Below, piece by piece: positions 12,507 to 25,932 of a stretch of DNA of 64,000 bases (the stretch's first letter is position 1; each line of letters opens with the position of its first letter). A program made the translations under genes and the position numbers. The DNA comes from Cupriavidus basilensis (lineage in GTDB: Bacteria > Pseudomonadota > Gammaproteobacteria > Burkholderiales > Burkholderiaceae): assembly GCF_000832305.1 (NCBI RefSeq), contig NZ_CP010536.1:3968001-4032000 (forward strand), given 5' to 3'. A model generated the notes under the pieces. The model was not told the origin of the DNA and searched no databases. It saw only the letters and a list, made by a program, of their open reading frames with translations.

Positions 12507-13598
12507 ATGAGCCTCAAATGCGGCATCGTCGGCCTGCCCAACGTCGGCAAGTCCACGCTGTTCAACGCCCTGACCAAGGCCGGCATCGCCGCCGAGAACT
12601 ATCCGTTCTGCACCATCGAGCCCAATGTGGGCGTGGTGGAAGTGCCGGATACGAGGCTCGCCAAGCTGGCCGAGATCGTCAAGCCCGAGCGCATCCTGCC
12701 GGCCGTGGTCGAATTCGTCGACATTGCCGGCCTGGTGGCCGGCGCGTCCAAGGGTGAAGGCCTGGGCAACCAGTTCCTGGCCAACATCCGCGAAACCGAC
12801 GCCATCACCCACGTGGTGCGCTGCTTCGAAGACGACAACGTGATCCACGTGGCCGGCCGGGTCGATCCGCTGTCCGACATCGAAGTGATCAACACCGAAC
12901 TGGCGCTGGCCGACCTCTCCACCGTCGAAAAAGCCCACGCACGCTACATCAAGCCCGCGCGCGCCGGCGACAAGGAAGCGCTGCGCCTGGTGGCCGTGCT
13001 GGAAAAAGCCCAGGCCGTGCTCAACGAGGCCAAGGCCGTGCGCACGCTCGACCTGTCCGATGAAGAATGGGCCGCCATCAAGCCGCTGTGCCTGATCACC
13101 GCCAAGCCCACCATGTACGTGGCCAACGTGCGTGAAGACGGCTTCGAGAACAACCCGCACCTGGACGCCGTGCGCGCCCACGCCGCCAAGACCAAGTCGC
13201 CGGTGGTAGCCGTGTGCGCCGCCATCGAAGCCGAGATCGCCGACCTCGACGATGCGGACAAGGCCGAGTTCCTGGCCGACCTCGGCATGGAAGAACCCGG
13301 CCTGGATCGCGTGATCCGCGCCGGCTTCACCCTGCTCGGCCTGCAGACCTACTTCACCGCCGGCGTGAAGGAAGTGCGCGCGTGGACGATCCATGTGGGC
13401 GACACTGCTCCACAGGCGGCCGGCGTGATCCACACCGACTTCGAACGCGGCTTCATCCGCGCCCAGACCATCGCCTATGAGGACTTCATTACCTACAAGG
13501 GTGAGCAAGGCGCGAAGGAAGCCGGCAAGATGCGCGCGGAGGGCAAGGAATATGTGGTGAAGGATGGCGACGTGATGAACTTCTTGTTCAACGTCTAA
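12507..13598 (+). CDS. ychF: Redox-regulated ATPase YchF (Obg-like)
   Basis: Ribosome-associated P-loop ATPase of the Obg/HflX superfamily, 363 residues, full family length. The P-loop is GLPNVGKST at residues 8-16, switch and G3 regions follow ([20 protein letters not shown]), and the TGS-like domain closes the protein (ending NFLFNV). It has a clear AAAGG-type ribosome site. The stop codon lies inside the 15-bp sequence repeated at the far end of the island, so the island appears to have inserted at the last codons of this gene while keeping the reading frame intact. Identity is firm. Confidence 0.97.
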
Positions 13599-13601
13599 GC
13601 C
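13587..13601 (+). other. Candidate attL core of the ychF island
   Basis: GTTCAACGTCTAAGC covers the last codons and stop of ychF. A copy with one mismatch (GTTTAACGTCTAAGC) is at 23522-23536. An integrase gene points away from this site. This is the pattern of site-specific insertion into the 3' end of a conserved gene. Only 11 bases are perfectly shared without interruption, so the exact crossover is not resolved. Confidence 0.6.
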
Positions 13602-13635
13602 GGACGGTTCATTTCAGACCATCCCACGGTATCCC

Positions 13636-13674
13636 AAAAAGCCCCGTAAAGCCTTGTGCCTACGGGGTTTTTTG
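13636..13674 (+). terminator. Rho-independent terminator after ychF
   Basis: CCCCGTA at 13642-13648 pairs with TACGGGG at 13661-13667, followed by a run of Ts. It is 37 bases after the ychF stop. A similar hairpin lies after attR at 23584. Confidence 0.8.
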
Positions 13675-13715
13675 TTTCCTGTCATATCACATCACTTCTT
13701 GTCATCCCGAAGAAA

Positions 13716-13779
13716 ACCGGGTACAAGACCGGGTACAACACCACGAGACAGCTCCGAATCCCGGATTTTCATACCCGGT
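13716..13779. repeat. Arm-type repeat cluster ACCGGGTAC, left end of island
   Basis: ACCGGGTAC occurs at 13716-13724 and again at 13728-13736, exactly 12 bases apart, and an inverted copy ATACCCGGT is at 13771-13779. The right end has the same pair with the same 12-base step at 23442 and 23454. Their position between the core site and the integrase gene suits integrase or excisionase arm-site binding; that role is inferred. Confidence 0.55.
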
Positions 13780-13820
13780 TTTCGCCGGAGACTTGCCACA
13801 AACCCGCACCGGGACTGGAA

Positions 13821-15089
13821 ATGCTGACCGATACCCAATGCCGCAACGCCAAGCCCAAGGATAAGCCGTACAAGCTGACCGATGGCAAGGGCCTGTATCT
13901 GGAGGTGAAACCGAACGGCGCGAAGGCCTGGCGCTATCGCTTCGAGCTGGCAGTGGATGGTAAGCACAAGGAAAGCCTATTTGCACTCGGCGACTACGCC
14001 ACCGCACCGGCCGCGGAAACCCCGGCGCAGACGAAGGCAAGGCAAGCGGGAGGACGCTTTACCCTGGCCGAAGCGCGTGAGGCGCGCACCAAGGCGCGGT
14101 CACTGGTCAAACAGGGCGTGAACCCAGCACACCACCGGCAGCTCGAACGCATCCAGCGCAGCCAGCAGAATGCCGCCACCTTCGAGGCAGTGGCAAAGGA
14201 GTGGCTGGGCCTAAAGGACTGGACCGAAACTACCAGGGCCAGGCGCCTGGACATGCTAGCGCGCGTCGTTTTCCCCAAGGTCGGAAAGTTGCCAGTGGAC
14301 ACGATCAAGCCGGCCCATGTGCTGGACGTACTGCAGGCCGCCGCCCAGAAGAACGGGCCGACCGTGGCCGCCGAGGCCAAGCGCACCATGTCCGCGGTAT
14401 TCGAACTGGCGATATCGACCTTGCGCGCCGAGGTCGATCCGGTCTATCCGGTGCGAAAGGCTCTGCCGGCAAACAAGACCCAGCACAAACGCCCGCTCTC
14501 GTCAGACGAAATCGGACGGCTGCTGCGCGACTTGGGCGGCTACGAGCGCAACTTCCAGACAGTGGCCGTGTTCCGCCTCATGTGGATGACCTTGTGCCGG
14601 CCCAGCGAGGCCGCGGGCGCGCGCTGGGAAGAATTCGATCTGGACGCGGGGCTCTGGCGCATCCCTGCTGAACGCATGAAGAAGCGGAAGGAGCACACTG
14701 CCCCCTTGCCGCGGCAGGCGACCGAGTTGCTGCGCGCGCAATACTCCCTGACCGGCCGGCACGCGCACGTCTTCCCCAACCGAGACGACCGCACCAAGCC
14801 CATGACGGATGCCACGCTGCGCCAGGCTCTCAAGTACCTAGGCTGGTCGGGCACCTACAGCCCGCACGCAACGCGCACCACCGGCAGCACGCGCCTCAAC
14901 GAACTGGGCTACCCGACTGACTGGATCGAACGGCAGTTGGCGCACGCCGAGCCCAACGCGGTGCGGCGCACCTACAACCACGCGGACCACTTAGCGGACA
15001 GGGCAAAGATGATGCAGCAGTGGGCGGACATGCTGGACACATGGAAGGCAGGCGCAACGGTGCTGCCGATCAACGGCAAGGTTGCCTGA
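13821..15089 (+). CDS. int: P4-type tyrosine integrase (DUF4102 N-terminal domain)
   Basis: Site-specific recombinase of 422 residues that would insert and excise the island. The N-terminal DUF4102-like arm domain begins MLTDTQCRNAKPKDKPYKL and includes DGKGLYLEVKPNGAKAWRYR. The catalytic residues are readable: arginine in LCRPSEAAGARW, HATR, the second histidine in LAHAEPNAVRRTYNH, and the nucleophilic tyrosine in that last motif. I took the ATG at 13821 because the frame upstream to 13656 runs through the repeat cluster. It appears intact. P4-type integrases usually target tRNA genes; here the repeat evidence points to ychF. Confidence 0.93.
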   Translation: MLTDTQCRNAKPKDKPYKLTDGKGLYLEVKPNGAKAWRYRFELAVDGKHKESLFALGDYATAPAAETPAQTKARQAGGRFTLAEAREARTKARSLVKQGVNPAHHRQLERIQRSQQNAATFEAVAKEWLGLKDWTETTRARRLDMLARVVFPKVGKLPVDTIKPAHVLDVLQAAAQKNGPTVAAEAKRTMSAVFELAISTLRAEVDPVYPVRKALPANKTQHKRPLSSDEIGRLLRDLGGYERNFQTVAVFRLMWMTLCRPSEAAGARWEEFDLDAGLWRIPAERMKKRKEHTAPLPRQATELLRAQYSLTGRHAHVFPNRDDRTKPMTDATLRQALKYLGWSGTYSPHATRTTGSTRLNELGYPTDWIERQLAHAEPNAVRRTYNHADHLADRAKMMQQWADMLDTWKAGATVLPINGKVA

Positions 15090-15181
15090 CATTTGCGAGC
15101 CGCGCCTAGATCGACGGATCGAAAGCCGGGTCCCCTACTCGGCCGGCGCAGCTCTCCAAGATAGATGCAAAAAAGGAGCGT

Positions 15182-15895
15182 ATGGACGAGCTTGATCTGT
15201 GCAGGATTGCGGACACCCTTCCGCTGACGGCAGTTGCCGCGCTTCTCGCCGGCTCAAGGCCCAGCCGAGTGCAGGCGCCAGACAAATCCGGGGTGAACCG
15301 ATACCACCTCCTACGACTGGACAGACCGGGCGGCGACGAGATTGGAGAAACGCCCGAAGTCTTCGACACCGCGCTGCAGATGCTGATGCATGCAGCGGGG
15401 CGGGGCACGCTCAAAGCGGACAAGGTCTACACCGGTGTATGGACCCTCCTCCGCTCCCGCGACGGATCCATACCAAGACCTCACCACTGCGAAGCGGTGG
15501 GGGCACTCGACCCGCACGCGACCACCGTTGCCGTAGACGACCTGACGCAATGGCTCGCCCGCCGCGGCGTGCGGTCGTGCTTCTTCTTTCCTGAGGACGC
15601 ACGCACACTGGACTACCTAGAGCCTACCCACGAACGCCATTCGCCGAGACTCGCCGCTGCGGTGAAGGCTTGGCAGGCTATGGAGGACGAGAACCTGAGG
15701 CGGAGGAAGTCACCAAAGGTCGCGATGGAGCAATGGCTTGAGTCCAACTACAAGGTGCTTGGACTGGTTCACAAGCGAGACAGCCGCAAGCACGGCTACA
15801 AAGAGGGCGACATGAACAAATCGGCAGTTGCAGAAGCAGCGAAGGTCGCGAACTGGGTAGATGGTGGCGGAGCACCTCGGACACCTGTCGAATAA
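15182..15895 (+). CDS. Hypothetical protein next to integrase
   Basis: 237-residue soluble protein that I do not recognise. It has a good ribosome site (AAAAAAGGAGCG before ATG), no signal peptide and no membrane segment. The N-terminal part (LCRIADTLPLTAVAALLAG) could form a helix-turn-helix-like start, and the C-terminal part is rich in Lys and Arg. The middle contains FFFPEDARTLDYL. Its place right after the integrase, same strand, 92 bases downstream, suggests a mobile-element housekeeping role. Function is not predicted. Confidence 0.7.
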   Translation: MDELDLCRIADTLPLTAVAALLAGSRPSRVQAPDKSGVNRYHLLRLDRPGGDEIGETPEVFDTALQMLMHAAGRGTLKADKVYTGVWTLLRSRDGSIPRPHHCEAVGALDPHATTVAVDDLTQWLARRGVRSCFFFPEDARTLDYLEPTHERHSPRLAAAVKAWQAMEDENLRRRKSPKVAMEQWLESNYKVLGLVHKRDSRKHGYKEGDMNKSAVAEAAKVANWVDGGGAPRTPVE

Positions 15896-16081
15896 CCCAC
15901 CCCACCCCTAGAGCCGCGCCAGCGCTAGGTTTGAAGGCTGCCCCGCCTCTTAGTCAGCCAGCAACCCACCCACCCCATGTTGCTCTCGACGGGTGGGTTT
16001 TCCGAACCCACCCGGCTATTCGAGGTATCGCCTGGTCTATTTAATTCGTGTCGCACCACTTCTTTTCACGAGGTCCGCGAC

Positions 16082-16369
16082 ATGGAAGAATCCACCTATT
16101 TTCCGACCGGCCCGAAGCCGGCCCCCATCAAACCCCGCAGCAATCCCGCGGGCACCCTGCCCGAGACGGGCTACGTCCGCCAGTCCCATCTGATCCCAGC
16201 CATCCTGCCGTTCTCGGGCACCACCCTCTGGCGCAAGGTCAAGGACGGCACCTTCCCCGCCCCCGTCAAGCTCTCCCCGCGCGTCACTGCTTGGCCGGTT
16301 GACGCCATCCGCGAATACCTGGCCGACCCCGAAAGCTACGGCACCACGCGCGCTGGCACGGAGGACTGA
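16082..16369 (+). CDS. alpA: AlpA-family excisionase/regulator
   Basis: 95-residue MerR-like winged-helix protein of the AlpA family. The core reads ETGYVRQSHLIPAILPFSG, then TLWRKVKDGTFPAPVKLSPR, and ends AWPVDAIREYLADP, which is the usual order. AlpA proteins regulate integrase expression or act as excisionases in P4-like elements. The start at 16082 gives MEESTYFP and follows CACGAGGT; an in-frame start at 15977 would add 35 unrelated residues. The Rha-family gene begins three bases after its stop, so the two are probably co-transcribed. Confidence 0.85.
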   Translation: MEESTYFPTGPKPAPIKPRSNPAGTLPETGYVRQSHLIPAILPFSGTTLWRKVKDGTFPAPVKLSPRVTAWPVDAIREYLADPESYGTTRAGTED

Positions 16370-16372
16370 CTA

Positions 16373-17194
16373 ATGCCGGCCACCCTGCAAAAGCAAAATC
16401 GCCGCGCCCCCGTCAATCCGATGCCCGCCAGCCCCCCCAATGGCAGAGTACTGCCGGCGCTGGTGCACCTGCACCGCGGTGTGCCTGTCACCGATTCCCA
16501 GTCGATCGCGCGTGAGTTCGGGCGCCGGCATGACAACGTGATGCAGTCGATCGGTAGCCTTATCGCAGACGACACGATCAACCGCCTTGATTTCAAGGAG
16601 GTTGAGTACACCGATGCCAAGGGCGAGCGGCGCCGCGCCATCGAATTGACCGAGCGGGGCGCCCTGATCGCCATGCCCTTCATTGGTGGCCGCAACTCTC
16701 GCGCAGGCCAGGCCCGCTTGGTGGATGCGTTCATGAGCATGCGCGTGCAGTTGGCGGAACGCATTACCACCGGCTGGGCCGAGGCCCGCCGCGAAGTTGC
16801 AGCAAACTATGCCGTAGTAGCAGAGATGCTGGCCATGCGCCGCGAAGCCGAGGGCAAGGAGACGAAGGCCCACCACTACACAAACGAGGTGCGCTTGATT
16901 AATTTTGCCTTCGCCGGCAAGTTCGGTCCGCTCGACCGCGGCAGCCTGAGCCACTCCGAATTGCACATTTTGAACCGCTTGCAAATCCGCGATTCCGCCT
17001 TGATCGGCGTGGGCAAGCCCTACGACGAGCGTAAGGTCGCCTTGGTGACCTATGCGGCCGAGCTACGAGCCGCGCAGCCCCGCCGCCTGTCGCGGGGAGG
17101 TTCCCAATTGAAAGCCCGCAACTCTGTCGGAGCCCAGCGCGCCCGCCTGCCGAACGACGAATCGCAAGCCCCAACAAGCGCGGGTGAGGCATGA
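16373..17194 (+). CDS. Rha-family phage regulatory protein
   Basis: 273-residue protein whose first 130 residues match the Rha domain: VTDSQSIAREFGRRHDNVM, then FKEVEYTDAKGERRRAIELT, then TERGALIAMPFIGG. Rha was first described as a lambdoid phage regulator and is common on prophages and satellite islands. The C-terminal third is basic and less conserved. It overlaps the next gene by four bases (ATGA), which implies coupled translation. In this island it is likely part of the regulatory and replication module alpA-rha-rep-like. Confidence 0.85.
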   Translation: MPATLQKQNRRAPVNPMPASPPNGRVLPALVHLHRGVPVTDSQSIAREFGRRHDNVMQSIGSLIADDTINRLDFKEVEYTDAKGERRRAIELTERGALIAMPFIGGRNSRAGQARLVDAFMSMRVQLAERITTGWAEARREVAANYAVVAEMLAMRREAEGKETKAHHYTNEVRLINFAFAGKFGPLDRGSLSHSELHILNRLQIRDSALIGVGKPYDERKVALVTYAAELRAAQPRRLSRGGSQLKARNSVGAQRARLPNDESQAPTSAGEA

Positions 17195-17640
17195 GCGCAA
17201 AGAAACGGCCGCAGGAGGCCGTCTCTGGCTCATACACACCGATCCCGCACGCAGTGCTGGACAGCGTGGCATTCGTTGGTGCGTCCATTCGGGCGAAAGC
17301 CATGCTCTTCGAACTCCTGCGACAGCATAGCGGGCGCAATAACGGCCGCCTGCAGCTTTCGGAACGGTGGCTGAAGGCGCGTGGCTGGAATTCATCCGAC
17401 CAAGTGCAGAAGGCAAAGGCTGAGCTGACGGAGCGCGGTCTCGCCCTGAAAACCCGGCAGGGCGGCAGGTCCATCGGGCCCGACTGGTTCGCCCTCACCT
17501 GGGTCCCGATTTCCAACTATGCCGACCTGGACATCAAGCCAGGAAGTTTCTACCCAGGACACTGGCGGATGATGGATACCGCCCCGATTGTGAAAGATGC
17601 CCGTTTCGGTGTAGCTCAGCAGAGCGGGGGGGAAACGTGA
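17191..17640 (+). CDS. Winged-helix, replication-initiator-like island protein
   Basis: 149-residue protein beginning SGSYTPIPHAVLDSVAF and continuing through RAKAMLFELLRQHSGRNNGR and LQLSERWLKARGW. This reads as a winged-helix DNA-binding domain of the kind found in small replication initiators and in phage island proteins. Four iteron-like repeats begin five bases after its stop, which supports a role in binding DNA there, either as initiator or autorepressor. The functional name is inferred from domain feel and context, not from a firm family match. Confidence 0.6.
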   Translation: MSAKKRPQEAVSGSYTPIPHAVLDSVAFVGASIRAKAMLFELLRQHSGRNNGRLQLSERWLKARGWNSSDQVQKAKAELTERGLALKTRQGGRSIGPDWFALTWVPISNYADLDIKPGSFYPGHWRMMDTAPIVKDARFGVAQQSGGET

Positions 17641-18298
17641 GACCTACACCACCTTACGGTGTAGATCCACACCGCCCCACGGTGCAGAGGGATCGTCTGC
17701 TACACCGCCCCACGGTGTAGCAAAAGGGGTTTGCGGTGATTTCAGTACACCGCCACACGGTGCGAATGAATGTTGCCAGTTGCCACCCACTGAAGACCAT
17801 TCCCGAGTTGAGGAAAAAAAGGGCGTGGCGAGGTGGACGGCCTATTGAGGTCGGTCACCAAAGATGGAGATGGAGAGCAAGCCATGGGAGGCGTCAGACG
17901 CGAATAGGCAAATCGGTGCGCAGCTGAGTGAAAGAGGGCAAGCTGCCCATTATCCAACCATAGGACTGGTAGGCTTAGAGCCAGCCCCGCGAGAGTGCCA
18001 ATGCCGCGCATCAGACGGCCAGCTTTGGCCCCAGCGGCCAGTTGTCAGCGGTTAATTGGCGCGGCTAGCAGCTAATCCGACCGGCAACGATACGGTCCAC
18101 CCTTCGCGGTACGCGGCCAATATGCCCTTCATAAAAGTTATCTTTCTGCTTGAACGTGGCAACCAAAGAGTGTTGCGGTTGCCGGCCCGCGCGGCTGGCT
18201 TTGACCGCGTGAGAAGTGCCGCCGAGGTGGAGACGACTGGCCTTGGAGAGATTACAAAGCCGTCGCCGTCCACTACACTCGAATCCGAGGAATCTCTA
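17641..18298. other. Non-coding stretch with iteron array, possible control region
   Basis: 658 bases between the winged-helix gene and the next small gene. The first 125 bases hold the four-copy repeat listed separately. The remainder (17770-18298) contains purine-rich runs (AAAAAAAGGG near 17814) and no frame with recognisable protein character. It could be an origin or a long regulatory leader. Confidence 0.4.
17645..17765. repeat. Four-copy iteron-like repeat, consensus TACACCGCCCCACGGTGTAG
   Basis: Copies lie at 17645-17664, 17668-17687, 17701-17720 and 17746-17765. Each is an imperfect palindrome, CACC...GGTG; the third copy is the most symmetrical. Start-to-start steps are 23, 33 and 45 bases, roughly two, three and four helix turns. 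A half site (CGGTGTAG) is also seen at about 17607. The array directly follows the winged-helix gene. Confidence 0.75.
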
Positions 18299-18535
18299 AT
18301 GGAGAGGACGATGCTAGGGCTACAGTACGTTGGGCTGGCGCTGAATCACTGGAAGAAGTGGCGCCCGAAGGAATACAAGGAAATGCAGAAGGACGGAACG
18401 CTCAACGAGAGGGCGCAGACGGCCAGCAAGGAGGCGGCGAAGCAGGTGGCGAGCCTGATGGCCGGGGGGTATCAGAAGCACGAGGCAGAGGAGGCAGTAC
18501 TCCCCGAACTGATTCTGCTGCGGCCAGAAAGGTAA
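18299..18535 (+). CDS. Small hypothetical protein
   Basis: 78 residues starting MERTMLGLQYVGLALNHW, then a charged helical region (KEYKEMQKDGTLNERAQ) and a short acidic end. I do not recognise it. GAGG about nine bases upstream of the ATG at 18299 serves as a ribosome site; the same frame is open from 18056 but that part shows no protein-like composition. A separate frame of broken HsdM sequence follows immediately, so this gene may itself be next to or part of a decayed segment. Confidence 0.45.
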   Translation: MERTMLGLQYVGLALNHWKKWRPKEYKEMQKDGTLNERAQTASKEAAKQVASLMAGGYQKHEAEEAVLPELILLRPER

Positions 18536-18584
18536 AGGGGCCGCGCAAGCCGCGCCCCAAGAAGCCCACGGGCGAGGCCTTCAC

Positions 18585-18768
18585 AGTGAAACCAACCTGC
18601 GCGACATCCTCGACAAGGTGCACGAGACCAAGCGCAAGCTGGCGGACGAATGCGACCTGTGGGCCATCGTCAGCCTGCCGGGTGGCAGTGTTCTCCACCG
18701 CTGGGGCCGGTGTGAAGACCAACTTGCTGTTTTTCACCAAGGGCAAGAAATCCGCGACGCTCTGCTAA
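18585..18768 (+). pseudogene. hsdM: Type I restriction methylase (HsdM/N-6 DNA methylase) remnant, frameshifted
   Basis: Two adjacent frames together spell part of an HsdM protein. The first (frame of 18618) reads NLRDILDKVHETKRKLADEC, then DLWAIVSLPGG. After one extra base at about 18684-18687 the other frame continues VFSTAGAGVKTNLLFFTKGK. The combined LPGG-VFSTAGAGVKTNLLFF pattern is characteristic of the region after the catalytic NPPF motif of type I methylases. The catalytic motif and the SAM site are missing, so this is a fragment truncated at both ends and frameshifted. No HsdR or HsdS sequence is seen nearby. Confidence 0.7.
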
Positions 18769-18831
18769 GACCGTCGCGCTCTTGCATGTTCGCAACACCC
18801 CTCCGCCGTGGGGCAGAGGAAGCGAGCCAAT

Positions 18832-19164
18832 ATGCGGCAGAGTAGAGCAATTAAATTCACACTGCAGATCATGCCTAGGCGCCGAAATTGCCCAACGATG
18901 CAACAGCTTCAGACCCGATTCGTCTGGGCATCGGTGCGGTGGTGGCTATGGGCCCTCATTGCATTCATCGCCGCCTACGCTATCAATACCGTCCCGTGCA
19001 TGGTACCGGGCATCCTCCCAGGCGCCGCTGCCGTCTGCGAGCCTGCGCTCCCCGTCGCCTATGTCGTCTGGCCCGTGCTTACGCTCATTGGCTGCGCGAT
19101 GGGAGGGTGGCGCTTCTACCGTGATTACTACTGCGGCGATATAGCGCGAGACTTCTATGAGTAG
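18832..19164 (+). CDS. Small membrane protein, hypothetical
   Basis: 110 residues with two likely membrane helices: about WWLWALIAFIAAYAI and VAYVVWPVLTLIGCAMGGW. A basic N-terminus precedes them. No family recognised. The start is uncertain: ATG at 18832, GTG at 18808 and ATG at 18898 are all in frame, and only the first has a purine-rich upstream stretch (AGAGGAAG). It could be cargo of the island, or an open frame left beside the hsdM remnant. Confidence is moderate because no ribosome site is strong. Confidence 0.4.
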   Translation: MRQSRAIKFTLQIMPRRRNCPTMQQLQTRFVWASVRWWLWALIAFIAAYAINTVPCMVPGILPGAAAVCEPALPVAYVVWPVLTLIGCAMGGWRFYRDYYCGDIARDFYE

Positions 19165-19247
19165 GCCCTCGCACAACTCAGCAGTAGCCCCCCGAAGCCA
19201 CTCGGATATGCCCCGTCTTGTCGCGACGCACCTTGGGAAGGCGGCGC

Positions 19248-20108
19248 CTACTGGCCACGTCCTCGCGATAGATCGATCTCTCGAATCCATTTCTCCGCGT
19301 TGGGTAAGCTCATCGAACTCCGCAACTCCGTCATATCGGCAGCGAACGCTAGTGCCTTCTCCCGAACCGGCGCAAGCTCCTCTGAAGCTCGATAGGGCGC
19401 GCCGTCGAATAGGGCTAAGAACCGTGATGGATAGTCGTCCAGCTCAAACTGATGGATTCTTCCAAGGCGCTCCAGATATGCGTGCCCCTGATTGATCTCA
19501 GTAGTGAGCCTCAGAAACTCAGGGTCATTCGGGCTCAATGGCTTCGGAAGAGCGCTTCTAATCTCATCCAGCGCACGAATCTTTTCCGAAGTGAAACTGT
19601 GCATGGGGTCGGCAAATGCGCGAGCCAGATCGTGGCATATTACCTTTGCCCACGAGCGGAGAGCCCTAGAAGTTGTCGTGGGATCAGAACCCATAGCTTG
19701 CATGGTAGAGCGAACCCGCTGTGCTAGCTCGTAGCTCTCCCTGGGGCTCGGTGCGGAATCCCACCTTCCCATCTTGCTATGAAGATCGACAAGTGTCTCG
19801 CCGGTAATCTCGGCAAGCTGTCGCAGTTTGCGGAGAGCCTCATCGGCCTGCTCGATCTTCTCGTCCAACTTCCTCGTCTTTGCCTCGATGCCCAGGCCCT
19901 TGATGGATTCAAAGCGGTCAATCGTTGCGGCAAAAAGGAGAGCGAGCCCGGCTGCGAGTGATGTCGCTGCGATTGACGTATTACTGTGTGCGACATGCCA
20001 GGTGCCGACAGCCAGATTCACTACGCCGGCTGCAAACAAACTCCAGTTTGTCAGCCCATAAAGTAACTGGCGATACCAGGGGAGAAGATTTTTGCCGTCG
20101 GAGACCAT
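19248..20108 (-). CDS. Membrane-anchored coiled-coil protein, hypothetical
   Basis: 286 residues. Two hydrophobic helices lie near the N-terminus (WSLFAAGVVNLAVGTWHV and IAATSLAAGLALLFAATI). A heptad-rich coiled-coil stretch follows (KTRKLDEKIEQADEALRKLR), then a mostly helical soluble domain of about 170 residues that I do not recognise. The likely layout is an inner-membrane anchor with a cytoplasmic sensor or effector region. It lies 135 bases downstream of the PIN-like gene on the same strand. Base composition is visibly lower in GC than the chromosomal flanks, consistent with transfer. Confidence 0.65.
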   Translation of the reverse strand: MVSDGKNLLPWYRQLLYGLTNWSLFAAGVVNLAVGTWHVAHSNTSIAATSLAAGLALLFAATIDRFESIKGLGIEAKTRKLDEKIEQADEALRKLRQLAEITGETLVDLHSKMGRWDSAPSPRESYELAQRVRSTMQAMGSDPTTTSRALRSWAKVICHDLARAFADPMHSFTSEKIRALDEIRSALPKPLSPNDPEFLRLTTEINQGHAYLERLGRIHQFELDDYPSRFLALFDGAPYRASEELAPVREKALAFAADMTELRSSMSLPNAEKWIREIDLSRGRGQ

Positions 20109-20243
20109 AGCTTAGGGAAGTAGTATTTCGAGCGTCCTTCAGATACTCATCGGCCCGGTGTCATATGATCCTATGCATCGTAGCCAAGCATCGATGCACG
20201 CCCGAGCGCTCTGCTGTGCGGACTCTCGCGCCGCACGTCGCCC

Positions 20244-21464
20244 TTATCCTTGTAGCCGCCGCTCAATGGCGCTCGGAAGATTGAGGAACTTGCCGACCAC
20301 GGTCGTTTTGAGAGGGAGCTTTGCTTCGGATATCGTATTCGCCATGAAGCCATCAGCCCGAAAAATGTCTACGTGCGGTACGTACACGGTATGTAAGATA
20401 TCGCCAAAATCGCTTGCAAGTGGCTTACGATGCCGCTGTGGTAGCAGTGCTGACCGGCGTCCTAGGTGACACATGACGTTAGCAACTGTCATCAGAGTCG
20501 GAGCATTCTCCCATGAACAATCGAATGCGTCGCCCACTGTGATTCCCTGAGCCGCTGCAAGCCTCCGTACGAGAGATCTAGGCTGATTCCGCAATAGCGA
20601 TGTGAAAACGTCGCGTAGCCCAGTCGCGACTGCGTCGGAAGGTTCACCAGCATTAGCAAGCCCCTCGCAAAGTCCGCTAACTTCTTGGGCGAGAGCAAGT
20701 AGCGACTCCATCAAACTCTCCCCGATCTCCCGAATGCACAACGATACCGGCGCGACACGCTCCCACTGCTTTGCATACCAGTCTGCAAAGCACTCCAGGT
20801 CCGCCATCGAATCCCTAATCCCCTTGATGGCCGTCTCCCTGGATCCAATGCCGAGCGAGTACTGAATAACATCACGCAATGCAGCCGGTGTCATCGGAAA
20901 TTGATCTGCTGCGTGCTGTTCAGCGGTGAGAGCGAGGCTGCGAAGGCGCTTGTACGCAGAGCTGCGCAAGCCGCCCCGGCTGTCGAAAAACTCCTGCTCG
21001 TGCTTCCGTCTCGATTTTCGATTGAGGTGCATCGAGTCTAGCTCTTCGCGGAGCAAAACAGCGGGGGAAGTCGGCTCAATAAGCGCGTCGTCGAAGCTTG
21101 GCATCCAGTGCCCATCAGACCTAGAGACTTCAGGAGCGCTGACACCTTGATGCGGCGCTCTCGTTGCAAGAAGCTCCGATTCCATTATGGCGAAGGGATC
21201 CAGCAAGCACGCCCTACCGCAAAGGCGGGAGATATGCCTGAGGCGCATCTTCGCGGCATCTAAGCTCGATGCGTCCACTGGGGCGACCTCAATGACGTGA
21301 GCGTAGCTATATCGGAGCTGGATCAGGCCTTCTTCTTGCCAAGACAAGAGAGTTCTTTCGGTATCGGAATGAGCTTCTGTGCGGGCACTAGGGTTAGCCA
21401 GCGTCGAGAAGTCGCTACTATCCAGATACACTTGGAGGGGGCGCTTAGCTGTCACTGAAACCAT
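20244..21464 (-). CDS. PIN-like domain protein
   Basis: 406 residues. The start LQVYLDSSDFSTLANP resembles the first strand and acidic residue of PIN-like nucleases. The C-terminal SDFGDILHTVYVPHVDIFRA, followed closely by a further aspartate, resembles the motif that closes a PIN-like active site. The middle 200 residues are helical and unassigned. PIN-like proteins of this size occur as cargo on genomic islands and include RNA-cutting toxins and defence effectors. A nuclease function is inferred from the paired acidic motifs only. It is read opposite to the integrase and is low in GC. Confidence 0.6.
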   Translation of the reverse strand: MVSVTAKRPLQVYLDSSDFSTLANPSARTEAHSDTERTLLSWQEEGLIQLRYSYAHVIEVAPVDASSLDAAKMRLRHISRLCGRACLLDPFAIMESELLATRAPHQGVSAPEVSRSDGHWMPSFDDALIEPTSPAVLLREELDSMHLNRKSRRKHEQEFFDSRGGLRSSAYKRLRSLALTAEQHAADQFPMTPAALRDVIQYSLGIGSRETAIKGIRDSMADLECFADWYAKQWERVAPVSLCIREIGESLMESLLALAQEVSGLCEGLANAGEPSDAVATGLRDVFTSLLRNQPRSLVRRLAAAQGITVGDAFDCSWENAPTLMTVANVMCHLGRRSALLPQRHRKPLASDFGDILHTVYVPHVDIFRADGFMANTISEAKLPLKTTVVGKFLNLPSAIERRLQG

Positions 21465-21964
21465 TTGGATCTACAGCTCCGCATGAGGAACGCTCGTGGT
21501 CACTGCGAGCACGTTTTGGTCGACTTGCTGACTGTTCCGTCCTTGCAGACAAACTTGCTGCCGCTGCAATGCGAAACCCCGCCCTTGCTGCCCGAACATA
21601 GCTGGCGCCCCCGAGCATCTGCAGCCTGGCTCACCGCCAAGAGACCCAGAACAACCGGCGCCCCAATGTGACGCATATGCCATCCCGTTAGAATGGGAAG
21701 TGTCGCCGGCGGGGCTGCGCAGGGGAACCCTTCCGAAGCCGGGGCCCTCTGCCGAGCCCCCCAACCCGATCGGCTGCTGGGTAGCCGACGCGTTTACTGG
21801 TGGAGAGCATAGCAATACCTACTATCCGCCACAACTTCCACTGCAGCCGGGGGGCGCAGGAAATCCTTCCGAGGTGTGGAGCAGAGGGTAGCTGACCGGT
21901 AGTGGCGGGCCTCTGTTTGCATTACCATTGCGCCGATTGACCAAACAACAATGAGCTAACCAAA
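21465..21964. other. 500-base gap between divergent cargo operons
   Basis: Separates the minus-strand PIN-like gene from the plus-strand two-gene operon, so it should contain both promoters. I see no convincing gene; several short open frames overlap each other in both directions without family features. Confidence 0.4.
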
Positions 21965-22456
21965 TTGGCCGGTCCCGTTCTCTATTCAACGAATTGTTGG
22001 TACGCACATCAGATCGCAGTAAAGTACAGGGGAGGTCGTCACTTCGTGTGGTGCAGTGAGCACTACGATCCGACGAGCGCACCTGCGGGATCTGCTGGGG
22101 CCGCTATTGCCCCCAGTTCCAGTCCCAAAGGAATCTACGATCAGCTCCACGGAGATTGTGACCGAGAAGACACACACAGCGCGCTTATTAAGGGGTACTC
22201 AAAGACGTTTCGCCGACTTGCAACGCAGTGGCTCAGCACGTCCGAGATCACGAAGGACCAGCATGACGAGATCGTCAGCGCGATCACATCTAAGAGCTGG
22301 AAAATATGGCGTCCAGTACTCTTTGTGATTCCGCGGCATCCAATTGAAAGCTCCGGCCGATTGCTCACCGTGCCTCACAAGCGTCGAGCGGCATACGGAC
22401 CAGAGCTGCAAATTCTCGATTTGGCTGCGGCCGAATTCGACATGATCGAGAGGTGA
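21965..22456 (+). CDS. Unknown island protein, first gene of a two-gene operon
   Basis: 163 residues starting at a TTG codon. The N-terminal part reads LYSTNCWYAHQIAVKYRGG, then HFVWCSEHYDP, and the C-terminal part contains SWKIWRPVLFVIPRHPIE. It has no signal peptide or membrane helix. I do not recognise the family. Aromatic residues and histidines are concentrated in the first 35 positions, which would suit a nucleotide- or substrate-binding pocket, but that is speculation. The second gene begins four bases after its stop, so the two proteins probably act together. The start is not certain because TTG is uncommon. Confidence 0.6.
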   Translation: MAGPVLYSTNCWYAHQIAVKYRGGRHFVWCSEHYDPTSAPAGSAGAAIAPSSSPKGIYDQLHGDCDREDTHSALIKGYSKTFRRLATQWLSTSEITKDQHDEIVSAITSKSWKIWRPVLFVIPRHPIESSGRLLTVPHKRRAAYGPELQILDLAAAEFDMIER

Positions 22457-22460
22457 AAAA

Positions 22461-23360
22461 TTGATCACAACTCTGTCGCGGTTCGATAAGGTTACAGCAG
22501 CCGGGATTCTTGCGCGTGCCGCAGTCGCTTTAGACGATGATGCAAATCCGGTAGCTCACCAGTTTCGCGTGCCCAGCGAACTGGAGTTGCGCACCGCCAT
22601 ATTAGAAGAAATCCGAGCCAAGCTTGGAATAGCAGTAACTGACTGTACTCGTGAGTCGCTCGAGCGATTGGAAGATGTGCTTGATGACGAGATGGAAGCT
22701 CTGGTTGGCCCCACGGACACACAGAAAGCACTTGCCAACTTGTCCGCACAGGGCGACCTCCCCTCCGATCTTTTCGAGGTTGTCGCTATTCCAAATATCA
22801 TTCAGTTCTACGGAAAGCGATTCGACCAGGAAGAGAAAATAATCCGAGAAACGGTGAGTAAAGCCGATCAAGAGCAGCACTTCGGACCGCCAGTAGCCAT
22901 CGGCGAGCCCTTCCTCATTTCGTTGTTTACAAAGCACTACCCGAATAAGTTTCCTCTGCGTAGTTTTACGATGTTGGTGGCCGGTCAGCGTACAGGGCTC
23001 GTGCTGACAGTACAGCAAGCCTGGCGAGTATATGCTGACCTGGTGGATACGGTGAGCGCGAAGACTCTCGTCGATTTGCTGCGCAATTTTTCCAATGCGT
23101 TCAAGGCTGAATTGTTGGTCAATGGAAAGAAAGGCAATTTCTTCCTTTCTGAGAATATCCGGGACGATCATCCCAGCGGCACGGAAATTACTATTCTGCA
23201 CCCCACCGACAAGCACGGAAACCCGGCCAAAGGAACACATACGCAGACCGTTAGCTGTTTCGAACAGAAGGATCCGATTTCGCGAGGTACGCGGGTCTCC
23301 CTGATCGTTGGTGTGAATCTGACAAAATACAAGGCTGTTTTAGAAGAGCGTGCCTGGTAG
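22461..23360 (+). CDS. Unknown island protein, second gene of a two-gene operon
   Basis: 299 residues from a TTG start preceded by GAGAGGTG. The N-terminal 150 residues are helical and acidic; the C-terminal part is basic with short strands (LLVNGKKGNFFLSENIRDD, then ILHPTDKHGNPAKG). No catalytic motif I can name is present, nor a membrane segment. It is the last gene before attR. Small operons of unknown soluble proteins at this position, next to the attachment site, are often defence or toxin cargo; this is a location-based guess only. Confidence 0.65.
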   Translation: MITTLSRFDKVTAAGILARAAVALDDDANPVAHQFRVPSELELRTAILEEIRAKLGIAVTDCTRESLERLEDVLDDEMEALVGPTDTQKALANLSAQGDLPSDLFEVVAIPNIIQFYGKRFDQEEKIIRETVSKADQEQHFGPPVAIGEPFLISLFTKHYPNKFPLRSFTMLVAGQRTGLVLTVQQAWRVYADLVDTVSAKTLVDLLRNFSNAFKAELLVNGKKGNFFLSENIRDDHPSGTEITILHPTDKHGNPAKGTHTQTVSCFEQKDPISRGTRVSLIVGVNLTKYKAVLEERAW

Positions 23361-23441
23361 ATGGCGACGCCAGTCATCCGGGGGAGTCGTCAGCTGCTCG
23401 TGCACCGTAAAAGCGCGATGGGTGCTAGTAACGACAACGAA

Positions 23442-23462
23442 ACCGGGTATGAAACCGGGTAC
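23442..23462. repeat. Arm-type repeat pair, right end of island
   Basis: ACCGGGTAT at 23442-23450 and ACCGGGTAC at 23454-23462, in the same orientation and with the same 12-base step as the pair at 13716 and 13728. They lie 60-80 bases inside the attR core. Confidence 0.55.
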
Positions 23463-23521
23463 GAAATGGGAGCCCCTCGCCATAGACCCATCAACTACGC
23501 GGATTTCAGGTCGATATGTCG

Positions 23522-23536
23522 GTTTAACGTCTAAGC
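23522..23536 (+). other. Candidate attR core of the ychF island
   Basis: GTTTAACGTCTAAGC matches the ychF 3' end copy at 13587-13601 in 14 of 15 positions and would also end a reading frame in Phe-Asn-Val-stop. This marks the far boundary of the island and gives a length of about 9.9 kb. Confidence 0.6.
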
Positions 23537-23583: not shown

Positions 23584-23621
23584 GAGCCCCGCAAGGCATG
23601 CGTGCCTGCGGGGCTTTTTGC
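23584..23621 (+). terminator. Rho-independent terminator beyond attR
   Basis: AGCCCCGCA pairs with TGCGGGGCT, extended by GGCA/TGCC, and is followed by five Ts. It resembles the hairpin after ychF at 13636. It is probably the terminator that followed ychF before insertion, or a second copy brought by the element. Confidence 0.75.
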
Positions 23622-23662
23622 TTCAGGTGGCGGCCCCTCTCTTGTGCCGAGCCACCACAAGA

Positions 23663-23953
23663 TCATCCATCGCGCGTCCCCTCCAAGTCCCGCAGGACCG
23701 CGAGTTCGCTCAACACCAGCGCTTCGTTAGCGAGTGTCGCCGCCAGCGAAAGCAGATGGCCCTGGGTCTCCTCCGTCAAGTTGGCAAGGGTGCCCCCGGC
23801 AGCGTTCTCGATGGCGACCGACAGCAGCGCATTGAGTTGCGCAGCCTTTTCAGCGGCGAGGCTAAGCGGGCTTTCGGCTGCAGCGTGCGCGGTCACGAAG
23901 ATATCGCGGCCTGTCTGTTCGGCGCTGATGTTGTAGTGGGGGTGCTTACACAT
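23663..23953 (-). CDS. Small hypothetical protein (DUF3077-like)
   Basis: 96 residues, helical and alanine-rich, starting MCKHPHYNISAEQTGRDIF. The central part (AAEKAAQLNALLSVAIENAA) recalls short DUF3077/DUF6124-type proteins of pseudomonads, which have no known function. I prefer the ATG at 23953, preceded by GGGAG, over the in-frame ATG at 23962. Its start overlaps the end of a short upstream frame, suggesting coupled translation. It lies just outside attR. Confidence 0.55.
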   Translation of the reverse strand: MCKHPHYNISAEQTGRDIFVTAHAAAESPLSLAAEKAAQLNALLSVAIENAAGGTLANLTEETQGHLLSLAATLANEALVLSELAVLRDLEGTRDG

Positions 23954-24059
23954 TGGATGCACTCCCGATTTGGGAGCGCATGCGCTTTGGAATTACGGGG
24001 ACTTTGGGATAAGCCGAATGCCAGGTACAGGCAATTCGGACAAACAAGGACTGGGGCAT
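23946..24059 (-). CDS. Possible 37-residue leader peptide
   Basis: A short frame starting ATG at 24059 and reading MPQSLFVRIACTWHSAYPKV at its start. It has a strong ribosome site (AAGAGGAGG, five to six bases before the ATG). Its stop overlaps the start of the next gene in AATGTGTAA. A good Shine-Dalgarno sequence plus overlap supports a translated, coupled small frame; no family is recognised. Confidence 0.4.
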   Translation of the reverse strand: MPQSLFVRIACTWHSAYPKVPVIPKRMRSQIGSASNV

Positions 24060-24630
24060 GTGCGCCTCCTCTTGACCAATTCAAAGGAACCGCCTTGCGG
24101 CGGCTGTCTTCCCACGTAGTCGAGACGCCAATCCCGGTCGCTGTGGTTGCAGCGACTCGTCTAGTATAGCGCTGGCAGCAATGATCGTGCGCACTCCCGA
24201 GGCATCGGCTGCTGACTCCACGAAGACGCGCATACAGAGCTTTGGGCTCCTTCGCGAAAGACTTACGCTGGTCATCGCACAGATGAAAGCGCCTGTACGG
24301 ATGAGCAGGCGCGGCGCAGACGCCCTCGCACGACGCGACAATCGAACGAGTCCCAGGTTGTCGTTTCGCCCGATCTTCAATCAAAGAGATCCTTTGAGCG
24401 CCTGGGAGATGGTTCGGCGCAAAAGGCTGAAGCAAGTGGCTGGTTGGGCACGTCATCGCCAGACCCTTGATTTCGGTCAGTCGAAGCCTGACGAGGCGTA
24501 GTTGCAACTCGTACAAGGTGCGATCCGGAAGCCGCGGCCAATTGGCTTGGGATGTCTACGCAGGGTGACTGGACGGTACGGCAAGGAGCAATCATACTGA
24601 TCATAGTGATCAATATGGATGGAGATAACC
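24060..24630. other. Non-coding stretch before the toxin-antitoxin pair
   Basis: About 570 bases. Frames are open on both strands but overlap and lack ribosome sites or family motifs. The last 35 bases hold the candidate operator of the antitoxin gene. Confidence 0.4.
24598..24612 (+). promoter_or_regulatory. Candidate antitoxin operator, TGATCA direct/palindromic pair
   Basis: TGATCA at 24598-24603 and 24607-24612, each self-complementary, separated by three bases and ending 18 bases before the antitoxin ATG. Phd/YefM antitoxins usually repress their own operon at paired palindromes in this position. Confidence 0.5.
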
Positions 24631-24900
24631 ATGATTACCGAAGTCACCGCAGTCAATTTCCGGCAGAACTTGGGCGACATGCTCAATCAAGTGCAGTACC
24701 GCCACGACAGCATCGTCATCAACAAGGACGGTAAGCCGGTCGCCGCGCTGGTCGATGCCGAACTATTCGCGCGTATTCGCAGGATGCGGGAACACTTCGA
24801 GGCGCTGAGCGATCGTGTTGCGCATGCCTACGACGATGTCCCGGCCGAGCAGGGAATGGCTGAAATCGAAGCCGCCGTGGCCGCAGAACGGAATCGCTAA
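24631..24900 (+). CDS. Type II antitoxin, Phd/YefM family
   Basis: 89 residues. The start MITEVTAVNFRQNLGDMLNQ is the usual Phd/YefM DNA-binding fold, followed by IVINKDGKPVAALVD. The C-terminal half is charged and should wrap the toxin. I chose the ATG at 24631, with GGAGA seven bases upstream; an in-frame ATG at 24619 overlaps that ribosome site. The stop overlaps the toxin start (TAATG), giving coupled translation. The protein likely neutralises the PIN toxin and represses the operon through the paired TGATCA sites. Confidence 0.88.
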   Translation: MITEVTAVNFRQNLGDMLNQVQYRHDSIVINKDGKPVAALVDAELFARIRRMREHFEALSDRVAHAYDDVPAEQGMAEIEAAVAAERNR

Positions 24901-25313
24901 TGCCAGGGTTGCGCGTCGTACTTGACACCAACGTGCTGATATCGGGATTGGCCTATCCGGCAAGCATACCGGGACGCATAGTTCAAGCCTGGCGACAAGG
25001 CGCGCTTGACGTCGTGCTGTCGCGGTACATCCTGGACGAGATGACGAGAGTTCTGCCTCGTCTCACGCGGATCCGCTTAAGCCCCGAAGAAATTCGCGAT
25101 CTGGCCGACAGCCTCATTCTGCTGGCCGATTTGGTAGAGCCGGATAGTGGGCGGGATGACGAACTGCGAGATCCTGCGGATCAGCCCGTGCTTGCTACCT
25201 TGCGCGTCGCCCAGGCGCAATACTTGATCACCGGCGATAAGGATTTGCTGGCGCTGGCACAACGCTACCCGATCGTTACGCCCGCCACTTTCTGGGCGAG
25301 GCACGGCGGTTAG
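24900..25313 (+). CDS. Type II toxin, PIN family ribonuclease
   Basis: 137 residues. The start RVVLDTNVLISGLAYP is the signature of the putative PIN-family toxin group (TIGR00305-like), with the first active-site aspartate. The closing acidic residues are read in DPADQPVLATLRVAQAQYLI and TGDKDLLAL. Predicted to cut RNA when free of antitoxin. It forms a one-base-overlap operon with the Phd-type gene. The pair is 1.1 kb outside the attR core, so it is not part of the ychF island as delimited here, though it may mark another small insertion. Confidence 0.88.
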   Translation: MPGLRVVLDTNVLISGLAYPASIPGRIVQAWRQGALDVVLSRYILDEMTRVLPRLTRIRLSPEEIRDLADSLILLADLVEPDSGRDDELRDPADQPVLATLRVAQAQYLITGDKDLLALAQRYPIVTPATFWARHGG

Positions 25314-25365
25314 GCGTTGCGACTCAGCGTCTGCGCAGAAATCCGCACGCCGGGAAGGGCAAACA

Positions 25366-25431: not shown

Positions 25432-25932
25432 TCACAGCGCCCCCAAATCCTCCCCCCGCAGCCCCACCAGCAACGCCTGCCCGTCCGGCCCCACACGGAA
25501 TTCCCCATAGCGCGCCTTCTCGAACCGCGCCCCCTGCCCTTCCTGAAAGAAGTACGCATCGGTGGATACCTGCGCCTGCGTGCCGCCCCAGCGCGACGGC
25601 ACAGTCTGGAAGCGCAGCAGTTGCTCGCCGCCGGCCAGCGCCTCGCCTGTGTGCAAGCGCACAAGGGTGGCTTCGCCACGCGGGTCGCGGCGGATCACGG
25701 CGACTTGCTCGCGCGCGGGCTCGATGCCTTGCCGGTGGAGCGCCTCGCGGATAGCGTCCGCAATGGCGAAGTTCAGCGCCATGTAGTCGCCTTGCATGAG
25801 CGAGCGCGGATCGACTGGCGCCAGGCGCAGGTAGACGGTGTCGCCATGCGCCAGCAGCCGTTCCTTGCCGGTGATGGCGAAGGCGGCCAGGCCGAGCGTG
25901 AGGACCCATGCCAACAGTATCCAGCGTTTCAT
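25432..25932 (-). CDS. GDYXXLXY domain protein
   Basis: 166 residues with one N-terminal membrane segment (WILLAWVLTLGLAAFAI) and a periplasmic domain. The name-giving motif is seen as QGDYMALNF at about residue 47, with phenylalanine in place of the last tyrosine. The family has no known reaction. Its start overlaps the DUF4401 stop by four bases, and DUF4401 overlaps DUF2157 in the same way, so the three proteins are translationally coupled and probably form one membrane complex. Confidence 0.88.
   Translation of the reverse strand: MKRWILLAWVLTLGLAAFAITGKERLLAHGDTVYLRLAPVDPRSLMQGDYMALNFAIADAIREALHRQGIEPAREQVAVIRRDPRGEATLVRLHTGEALAGGEQLLRFQTVPSRWGGTQAQVSTDAYFFQEGQGARFEKARYGEFRVGPDGQALLVGLRGEDLGAL

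Follow-up and report, generated by a model that had tools for sequence, protein, structure and literature searches.

A probable mobile island with a P4-type integrase at the ychF stop codon of Cupriavidus basilensis

The island at the end of ychF

We analysed 64,000 nucleotides of a Cupriavidus basilensis chromosome (hereafter the window; host genome of 8.42 Mb in two contigs), in which a complete ychF gene is followed by the gene of a P4-type tyrosine integrase. The segment 13586-23536, 9.94 kb in size, is very probably a mobile island in integrated form, with an integrase specialised for the ychF 3′ end. It seems to have inserted exactly at the ychF stop codon, leaving the gene unbroken. The features at its two ends are given below (window coordinates, strand, description).

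12507..13598, +, complete ychF gene, whose final codons and stop fall inside the attachment core (TIGR00092, E 5.7e-156)
13586..13600, +, attL core GTTCAACGTCTAAGC (ychF Phe-Asn-Val-stop), from the sequence; strand exchange placed at 13590-13596 by inference
13641..13673, +, terminator-like hairpin with T-run on the island side, right after the ychF stop, read in the sequence; folding energy -20.4 kcal/mol
13714..13736, +, left arm-type double repeat AAACCGGGTACAAGACCGGGTAC, from a repeat scan; at +128/+140 relative to the start of the core
13767..13781, -, inverted left arm repeat, from the same scan; offset +181
13821..15089, +, P4-type tyrosine integrase, 422 amino acids (aa), ATG at 13821; PF00589, PF13356, PF22022; member of a clade at ychF
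23440..23462, +, right arm-type double repeat AAACCGGGTATGAAACCGGGTAC, from the repeat scan; offsets -82/-70
23522..23536, +, attR core GTTTAACGTCTAAGC, from the sequence
23585..23619, +, probable native terminator-like hairpin of ychF, displaced by the island, read in the sequence; a counterpart follows the ychF stop in the Cupriavidus genomes G003, G058 and G040

The two cores are identical in 14 of 15 bases, and their sole difference, TTC against TTT, is a synonymous Phe codon. The original prediction, made from the letters alone, had described a 15-bp repeat across the ychF stop with one mismatch, and this repeat proved real; its right copy lies at 23522-23536 as predicted, whereas the left copy, given as 13587-13601, is exactly 13586-13600. 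The predicted insertion at the stop codon with preservation of Phe-Asn-Val-stop holds as well. Outside margins that reach up to about 100 bases from the cores, neither strand of the window, island included, showed another match to the 15-mer with one mismatch or fewer. A looser search with a guessed 15-mer and three mismatches recovered both sites, yet 25 of 100 shuffles gave at least two matches, so the repeat pair proves nothing at that tolerance. The strong evidence for the island is positional, namely arm repeats at P4-like spacing around both cores and island-free relatives that match the right flank right after ychF. GC content is about 64-71% outside the island and about 51-60% in its cargo, with an integrase end at roughly the level of the host. 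At the right end, a reading frame of 57 aa (23361-23534) finishes in the attR core and likewise ends in Phe-Asn-Val; it is probably a by-product of the core.

Phage P4 integrates at a tRNA gene, and its arm-type integrase resembles that of the island (35% identity over 96% of the query). In the P4 attP (GenBank X51522), doubled 12-bp arm repeats stand on both sides of the core together with one inverted repeat, with annotated offsets of -77/-65, +132/+144 and, inverted, +171 from the core start. Doubled AAACCGGGTAY repeats flank both cores of the island at nearly the same spacing (-82/-70, +128/+140, inverted +181). The integrase matched PF13356 (Arm-DNA-bind_3, E 2.5e-21), PF22022 (Phage_int_M, E 3e-20) and PF00589 (Phage_integrase, E 1.5e-25), and these domains together with the arm repeats confirm the predicted P4-type integrase directly downstream of ychF. 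The island differs from P4 in the sequences of arm motif and core, in its target, which is the ychF stop codon and not a tRNA gene, and in the lack of a primase among the proteins scanned in the window's copy.

A ychF gene was present in all 60 Cupriavidus genomes searched. Collapse of the empty site in relatives had been set beforehand as a test, and three of six close relatives read as expected of an empty site, because the DNA after their ychF stop matches the window's right flank (78/85 aligned bases in G003, 71/82 in G058 and 71/78 in G040), with scores well above those against the left arm of the island. G003 has a short partial extra core directly behind its ychF stop. Incomplete second cores resembling AACGTCTGA were also observed straight after the ychF stop at the loci L003, L006 and L016, and are possibly footprints of imprecise insertion or excision. 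Across the 60 genomes, 28 hold, within about 225 bp downstream of ychF, a gene related to the next one in the window (25432-25932), whose product we take to be a GDYXXLXY-type protein; five carry an integrase of the clade described below after ychF (G000, G001, G013, G032, G039), two carry a distant integrase (G015, G027), and the remaining 25 hold other DNA or were undecided. Low-GC DNA runs on past 23536 to about 25 kb, and we considered an island extending that far. This is unsupported, since DNA of 23652-25314 occurs in pieces and in different order in G040 and G058, both without a clade integrase at ychF.

An integrase clade and its attachment sites

To place the integrase, relatives were collected from one genome per species (458 found), and the best 79 distinct loci were examined. 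Among these, 51 of the 56 loci with an integrase at least 58% identical to that of the window lay at ychF and none after a tRNA gene, whereas none of the 23 with at most 45% identity lay at ychF and 11 lay after a tRNA gene. At the 51 ychF loci the integrase starts 167-229 bases after the ychF end (226 in the window). The five remaining loci of the closer group are L053, L054, L074, L083, which is a fragment, and L087, where only about 400 bases precede the integrase in the contig stretch. The window has no tRNA gene, and none precedes the integrase within up to 500 bases at any of the 60 ychF rows of our comparison; a tRNA target was therefore ruled out. The original prediction had called the ychF 3′ end a less usual target; it is instead the commonest target within this integrase's clade.

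A tree with E. coli, Salmonella, P. veronii and P4 sequences added and G027 left out gave a clade of 65 rows, 60 of them at ychF, with a Shimodaira-Hasegawa-like approximate likelihood ratio (SH-aLRT) of 99.4. In the first tree, which included G027, the clade held 62 rows (58 at ychF) and G027, about 36-41% identical, fell outside it on a long, unsure branch; both trees were of a quick kind without bootstraps. We define the ychF-site clade by membership of the 65-row group, an integrase start lying 167-229 bases beyond the final sense codon of ychF and the core TTYAAYGTNTRR, and the window integrase shows all three features. Hosts at the clade loci include Cupriavidus, Massilia, Janthinobacterium, Azonexus, Pseudomonas (including P. 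aeruginosa PA7) and Stutzerimonas. In a class-wide sample of 369 genomes, matches to the integrase at E<=1e-100 came only from the window's own genome, which shows rarity and not absence. The integrases of G015 (locus L116) and G027 (L147), only 36-38% identical, likewise start 147-210 bases past the ychF end, the G015 gene matching in separate pieces. Other integrase lineages may thus use the ychF site too, and because G027 falls outside the clade, ychF may have been adopted as a target more than once.

Away from ychF, L053 (Stutzerimonas) and L054 (Achromobacter) carry the same clade integrase in near-identical surroundings at one shared site containing AACGTCTGA. On a P. veronii plasmid typed as conjugative (L263, NZ_CP142043.1), a clade integrase follows a stretch reading GTCTAAATAG, which is probably a secondary site.

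Right ends were located for ten islands, six in the DNA examined for 68 rows and four in 23 whole genomes. Both ends were read by one pattern in nine of them (the window, L035, L038, L057, L085, L172, L064, L059 and L045; 5.2 to 35.8 kb), and the tenth, L056, was missed by the pattern because its left stop is TAG. The attR core was TTTAACGTCT in 9/9 islands, found unprompted in six, while for L064, L059 and L045 the search pattern required TTT. The attL stop was TAA in 8/9, and the attR stop was TGA in 5/9, all five with an attL TAA. The second right arm stood at -69/-70 in 9/9 islands, both right arms were present in 7/9, and a left arm at +128/129 or +140-143 in 8/9. Host and element bases, as told from the attL/attR differences in the nine islands, seem to separate on either side of the block AACGTCT (13590-13596 in the window), so strand exchange probably takes place within it.

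A hairpin with T-run was found in 44 of 60 gaps between ychF stop and integrase start, against 8.8 expected when the gaps were shuffled two bases at a time, which is an approximate control; the 60 gaps include those of the distant G027 and G015. In 33 of the 44 the T-run lies 67-74 bases past the stop (73 in the window). The element seems usually to bring a putative terminator along with the stop codon.

Together these comparisons suggest the following course of integration. The attP carries its own copy of the ychF end (TTTAACGTCTAA), as the comparison of islands supports, and the integrase, acting on doubled AACCGGGTAY arms flanking the core, would carry out recombination. After integration ychF keeps Phe-Asn-Val, with the stop codon now coming from the element; a terminator-like hairpin at fixed distance is usually supplied by the element too, and the host's own hairpin ends up at the far end. 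The fixed hairpin suggests how the element can spare the host gene beyond its reading frame.

Matches in a plasmid collection led to ychF loci of E. coli and Salmonella. Among 5,426 complete E. coli genomes, 628 matched the integrase query (626 over at least 80% of the integrase), and 627 held the ychF end, the gap and the integrase start in one place. Another 4,058 hold the ychF-ycgV intergenic stretch instead, some with an insertion sequence inside. The original prediction had asked whether the same gene order is fixed across many genera. Adjacency of ychF and integrase does occur in many genera, but its distribution is patchy (5/60 Cupriavidus and 627/5,426 E. coli genomes), and gene contents differ among the ychF islands.

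In the single pair compared, an E. coli locus without integrase (L268, NZ_CP041955.1) agrees after position 6287, behind the ychF stop, with the left arm of the island at 94 of 111 aligned bases, including the hairpin. Given this agreement, the ychF-ycgV sites do not count as clean empty sites. They may hold the end of an older insertion, as a scar or a domesticated end, or the arm may have been taken from such a site. In E. coli uk_P46212 (L267, NZ_CP013658.1 383000-422000) we observed a ychF island of about 26 kb with cores and ATGAGTAC arms at both ends, whose cargo includes a retron Ec67-family reverse transcriptase, an ABC-three-component system and a RadC-family gene.

Putative regulation and replication genes, and the kind of element

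Downstream of the integrase, the left half of the island holds the following features.

15182..15895, +, hypothetical protein, 237 aa; no family found; matched by tblastn in 7 loci, which represent 4 genomes
15977..16369, +, AlpA-like excisionase/regulator; PF05930, weak at 22.6 bits (cutoff 21); matched by tblastn in 23 loci, with some genomes counted twice
16373..17194, +, Rha-family regulator; PF09669, E 1.3e-13; TIGR02681
17191..17640, +, winged-helix-like protein, weakly assigned as a probable replication initiator; phrog_270 E 0.0018, phrog_678 E 0.0084; relatives 36-38% identical in 5 loci
17644..17762, no strand, four similar repeats TACACC-N-GGTG, two of them perfect 7-bp palindromes, from a repeat scan; possible origin
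18056..18535, +, 159-aa open reading frame (ORF), C-terminal half common to other Cupriavidus ychF islands (66-69% over residues 88-158 in L032, L111)

The mobile-element genes (AlpA, Rha, winged-helix protein) and low-GC cargo that had been predicted between the repeats are there as claimed, the AlpA match being weak and the winged-helix protein having no Pfam match. The 159-aa ORF matched PHROG 938, labelled endolysin, at E 1.7e-7, over only the last ~100 of 2185 model positions. No repeat set comparable to 17644-17762 was found in the five relatives scanned, in which other small inverted repeats were seen. The AlpA-like protein would act as excision factor, and the Rha, winged-helix and repeat block would form the regulation and replication zone of a helper-needing satellite resembling the phage-inducible chromosomal islands (PICIs). 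The winged-helix protein and the repeats may stand in for primase and origin.

Several observations weigh against an island with an integrase dedicated to ychF, or against the details given above. Five clade members sit elsewhere (L053, L054, L074, L087 and the P. veronii plasmid), so specificity for ychF is strong, not absolute. Right ends were found for only 6 of the 68 rows in the DNA examined and in only 4 of the 23 whole genomes. Of the 58 left cores read, 11 differ from AACGTCT by one base, and their right ends were not found. The stops are reversed in L085 (TGA left, TAA right), the right core of the E. coli island L267 has TTC and not TTT, and 16 of the 60 gaps lack a terminator by the same test. 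Among the six close Cupriavidus relatives, neither flank is matched by G005, while the comparisons of G004 and G006 favour neither clearly. No excised circle was seen, and all three close relatives in IMG/VR are integrated beside a piece of ychF. Within the window's island, the AlpA and winged-helix assignments are weak, and no primase, helicase or relaxase was found among the 10 ORFs scanned, which are all of its 13 but three small ones.

That the island integrates in the way of P4 and the PICIs is well supported. Whether it is itself a helper-dependent, PICI-like phage satellite is close to an even question, tilted slightly towards no, and its identity as a PICI is not established, given that the scanned ORFs include no primase. 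We read it as a small PICI-like island. Its order of integrase, AlpA, Rha, replication-like protein and cargo follows the zones of Gram-negative PICIs (integration, Bro-type regulators, replication, late genes) described in PMC10111431. The int and alpA genes lie at one end in the same direction, as in PICIs, with AlpA just above the cutoff. Each of the seven other complete ychF islands examined (20 proteins scanned from 72 ORFs) has at least one protein with primase- or helicase-type domains, which is what one expects of satellites. On the other side, a scan of 10 of the 13 ORFs in the window's copy yielded no primase, genes for a capsid or for packaging were not found, no helper is known, and the primase-helicase pair of L085 is possibly a TOTE conflict system instead. 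That Rha belongs to the Bro network is our assumption, which we count against the PICI reading. As a side observation, L035 (6154-7047) and L038 (13038-13937) encode, upstream of primase-like genes, a protein of 298-300 aa matching PF22759 (phage E217 baseplate hub gp41; E 6e-18 and 2e-16).

A decayed, immobile relic is unlikely. The window's copy is without a primase, and in G017 and G031 the DNA after ychF resembles island left ends by eye, with no integrase relative in the stretch searched; but the integrase frame of the window is open over 422 aa, and both cores and the arms are present. Somewhat less probable still is a remnant of an integrative mobilizable or integrative and conjugative element moved by conjugation. 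One relative sits on the conjugative P. veronii plasmid, and L053 and L054 share their non-ychF site in different genera, but ten island proteins scanned with Pfam gave no match to a relaxase, coupling protein or type IV secretion component (an origin of transfer was not searched for). Boundaries made by homologous exchange at a hotspot, and not by site-specific recombination, are highly improbable, since the same core, arms and spacing recur in complete islands of several other genera, although the region downstream of ychF is variable in many Cupriavidus genomes.

Integration into protein genes with replacement of the gene end is already known, as are integrase clades of this type on protein genes (PMC10111431). 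According to the same paper, Gram-negative PICIs have int and AlpA at the left end, followed by regulators, replication and late or cargo genes. The PICIs described there resemble the ychF islands also in having integrase clades dedicated to a protein gene and, in helper-embedded PICIs, a doubled attP motif at similar spacing (at about -81 and +132 bp from the attP centre). The ychF island differs from them in targeting a conserved gene of the chromosome, which a replacement end keeps intact, in the sequence of the motif and in the lack of a primase in the window's copy. The integrase-only defence islands of E. coli (PMC10121019) resemble it in having an integrase without other known mobility genes and an unclear mobilisation, and the E. 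coli ychF island resembles them further in its retron Ec67-family reverse transcriptase and ABC-three-component system. The name ychF does not occur in the main text of PMC10121019, although the site may figure in its supplementary hotspot tables, and the main text of PMC12629846 holds neither ychF nor PA4673. Pneumococcal prophages also integrate beside ychF, but they do so upstream, on the promoter side, at other sites of 14-26 bp (PMC6375853, PMC8637289, PMC10383233). Within searchable text (supplements and subscription journals lie outside it), we found no report of integration at the ychF 3′ end.

We tentatively propose, at somewhat less than even confidence, that the ychF islands form a large satellite-like family of Beta- and Gammaproteobacteria, without a name in the texts searched and defined by one integrase clade, whose attP would be a gene-end replacement cassette (stop codon plus terminator) insulating a conserved housekeeping gene on integration, and which would be present in about 12% of complete E. 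coli genomes, with at least one member carrying defence systems. If this is true, some integrase-only defence islands gain a defined vehicle. The island points to ychF as a recurrent target of P4-type integrases, a protein gene that is kept intact, with a core, arms and spacing open to direct testing. With 627 of 5,426 E. coli genomes and one island with anti-phage systems, the family offers a way to ask how integrase-only defence islands move.

Cargo and flanking genes

The right half of the island carries four cargo genes.

19248..20108, -, 286-aa hypothetical protein of a wide family without Pfam match; 173 matches at E<=0.001, own sequence included
20244..21464, -, 406-aa protein with seven invariant acidic residues in the alignment; 50 matches at E<=0.001, one being the window's own; structure model with a mean predicted local distance difference test (pLDDT) of 93.2
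21965..22456, +, 163-aa hypothetical protein; no convincing family score
22461..23360, +, 299-aa protein (TTG start) without Pfam, PHROG, NCBIfam or PADLOC match; 68 matches at E<=0.001, one being the window's own; model pLDDT 91.6

Within the order, the 406-aa protein occurs in 4 of 399 genomes and the 299-aa protein in 1 of 399, the window's own genome included, and both have wider families in the protein database. A sequence-profile search with the 406-aa protein returned designed helical proteins and other coiled or helical chains. A PIN-like nuclease is suspected for it, solely from a resemblance of its acidic residues. The 299-aa model matched no PDB fold at E<=0.001, and the protein had no matches in the plasmid search. 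The 286-aa and 406-aa genes were considered as one module and this was rejected, as no 286-aa relative lay within the 11-13 kb fetched around 406-aa relatives in three other genomes of the order. A known defence system was likewise rejected for the cargo, its sole match, JetC to the 286-aa protein, being weak (E 0.00035) and not accepted. A role of the cargo in phage defence is a guess, made because of the company kept by one E. coli relative.

To the right of the island, at 24619-25313, the window holds a Phd-family antitoxin gene followed by what is probably a PIN toxin gene; a homologous stretch occurs in G040, with 80% identity over 718 bp.

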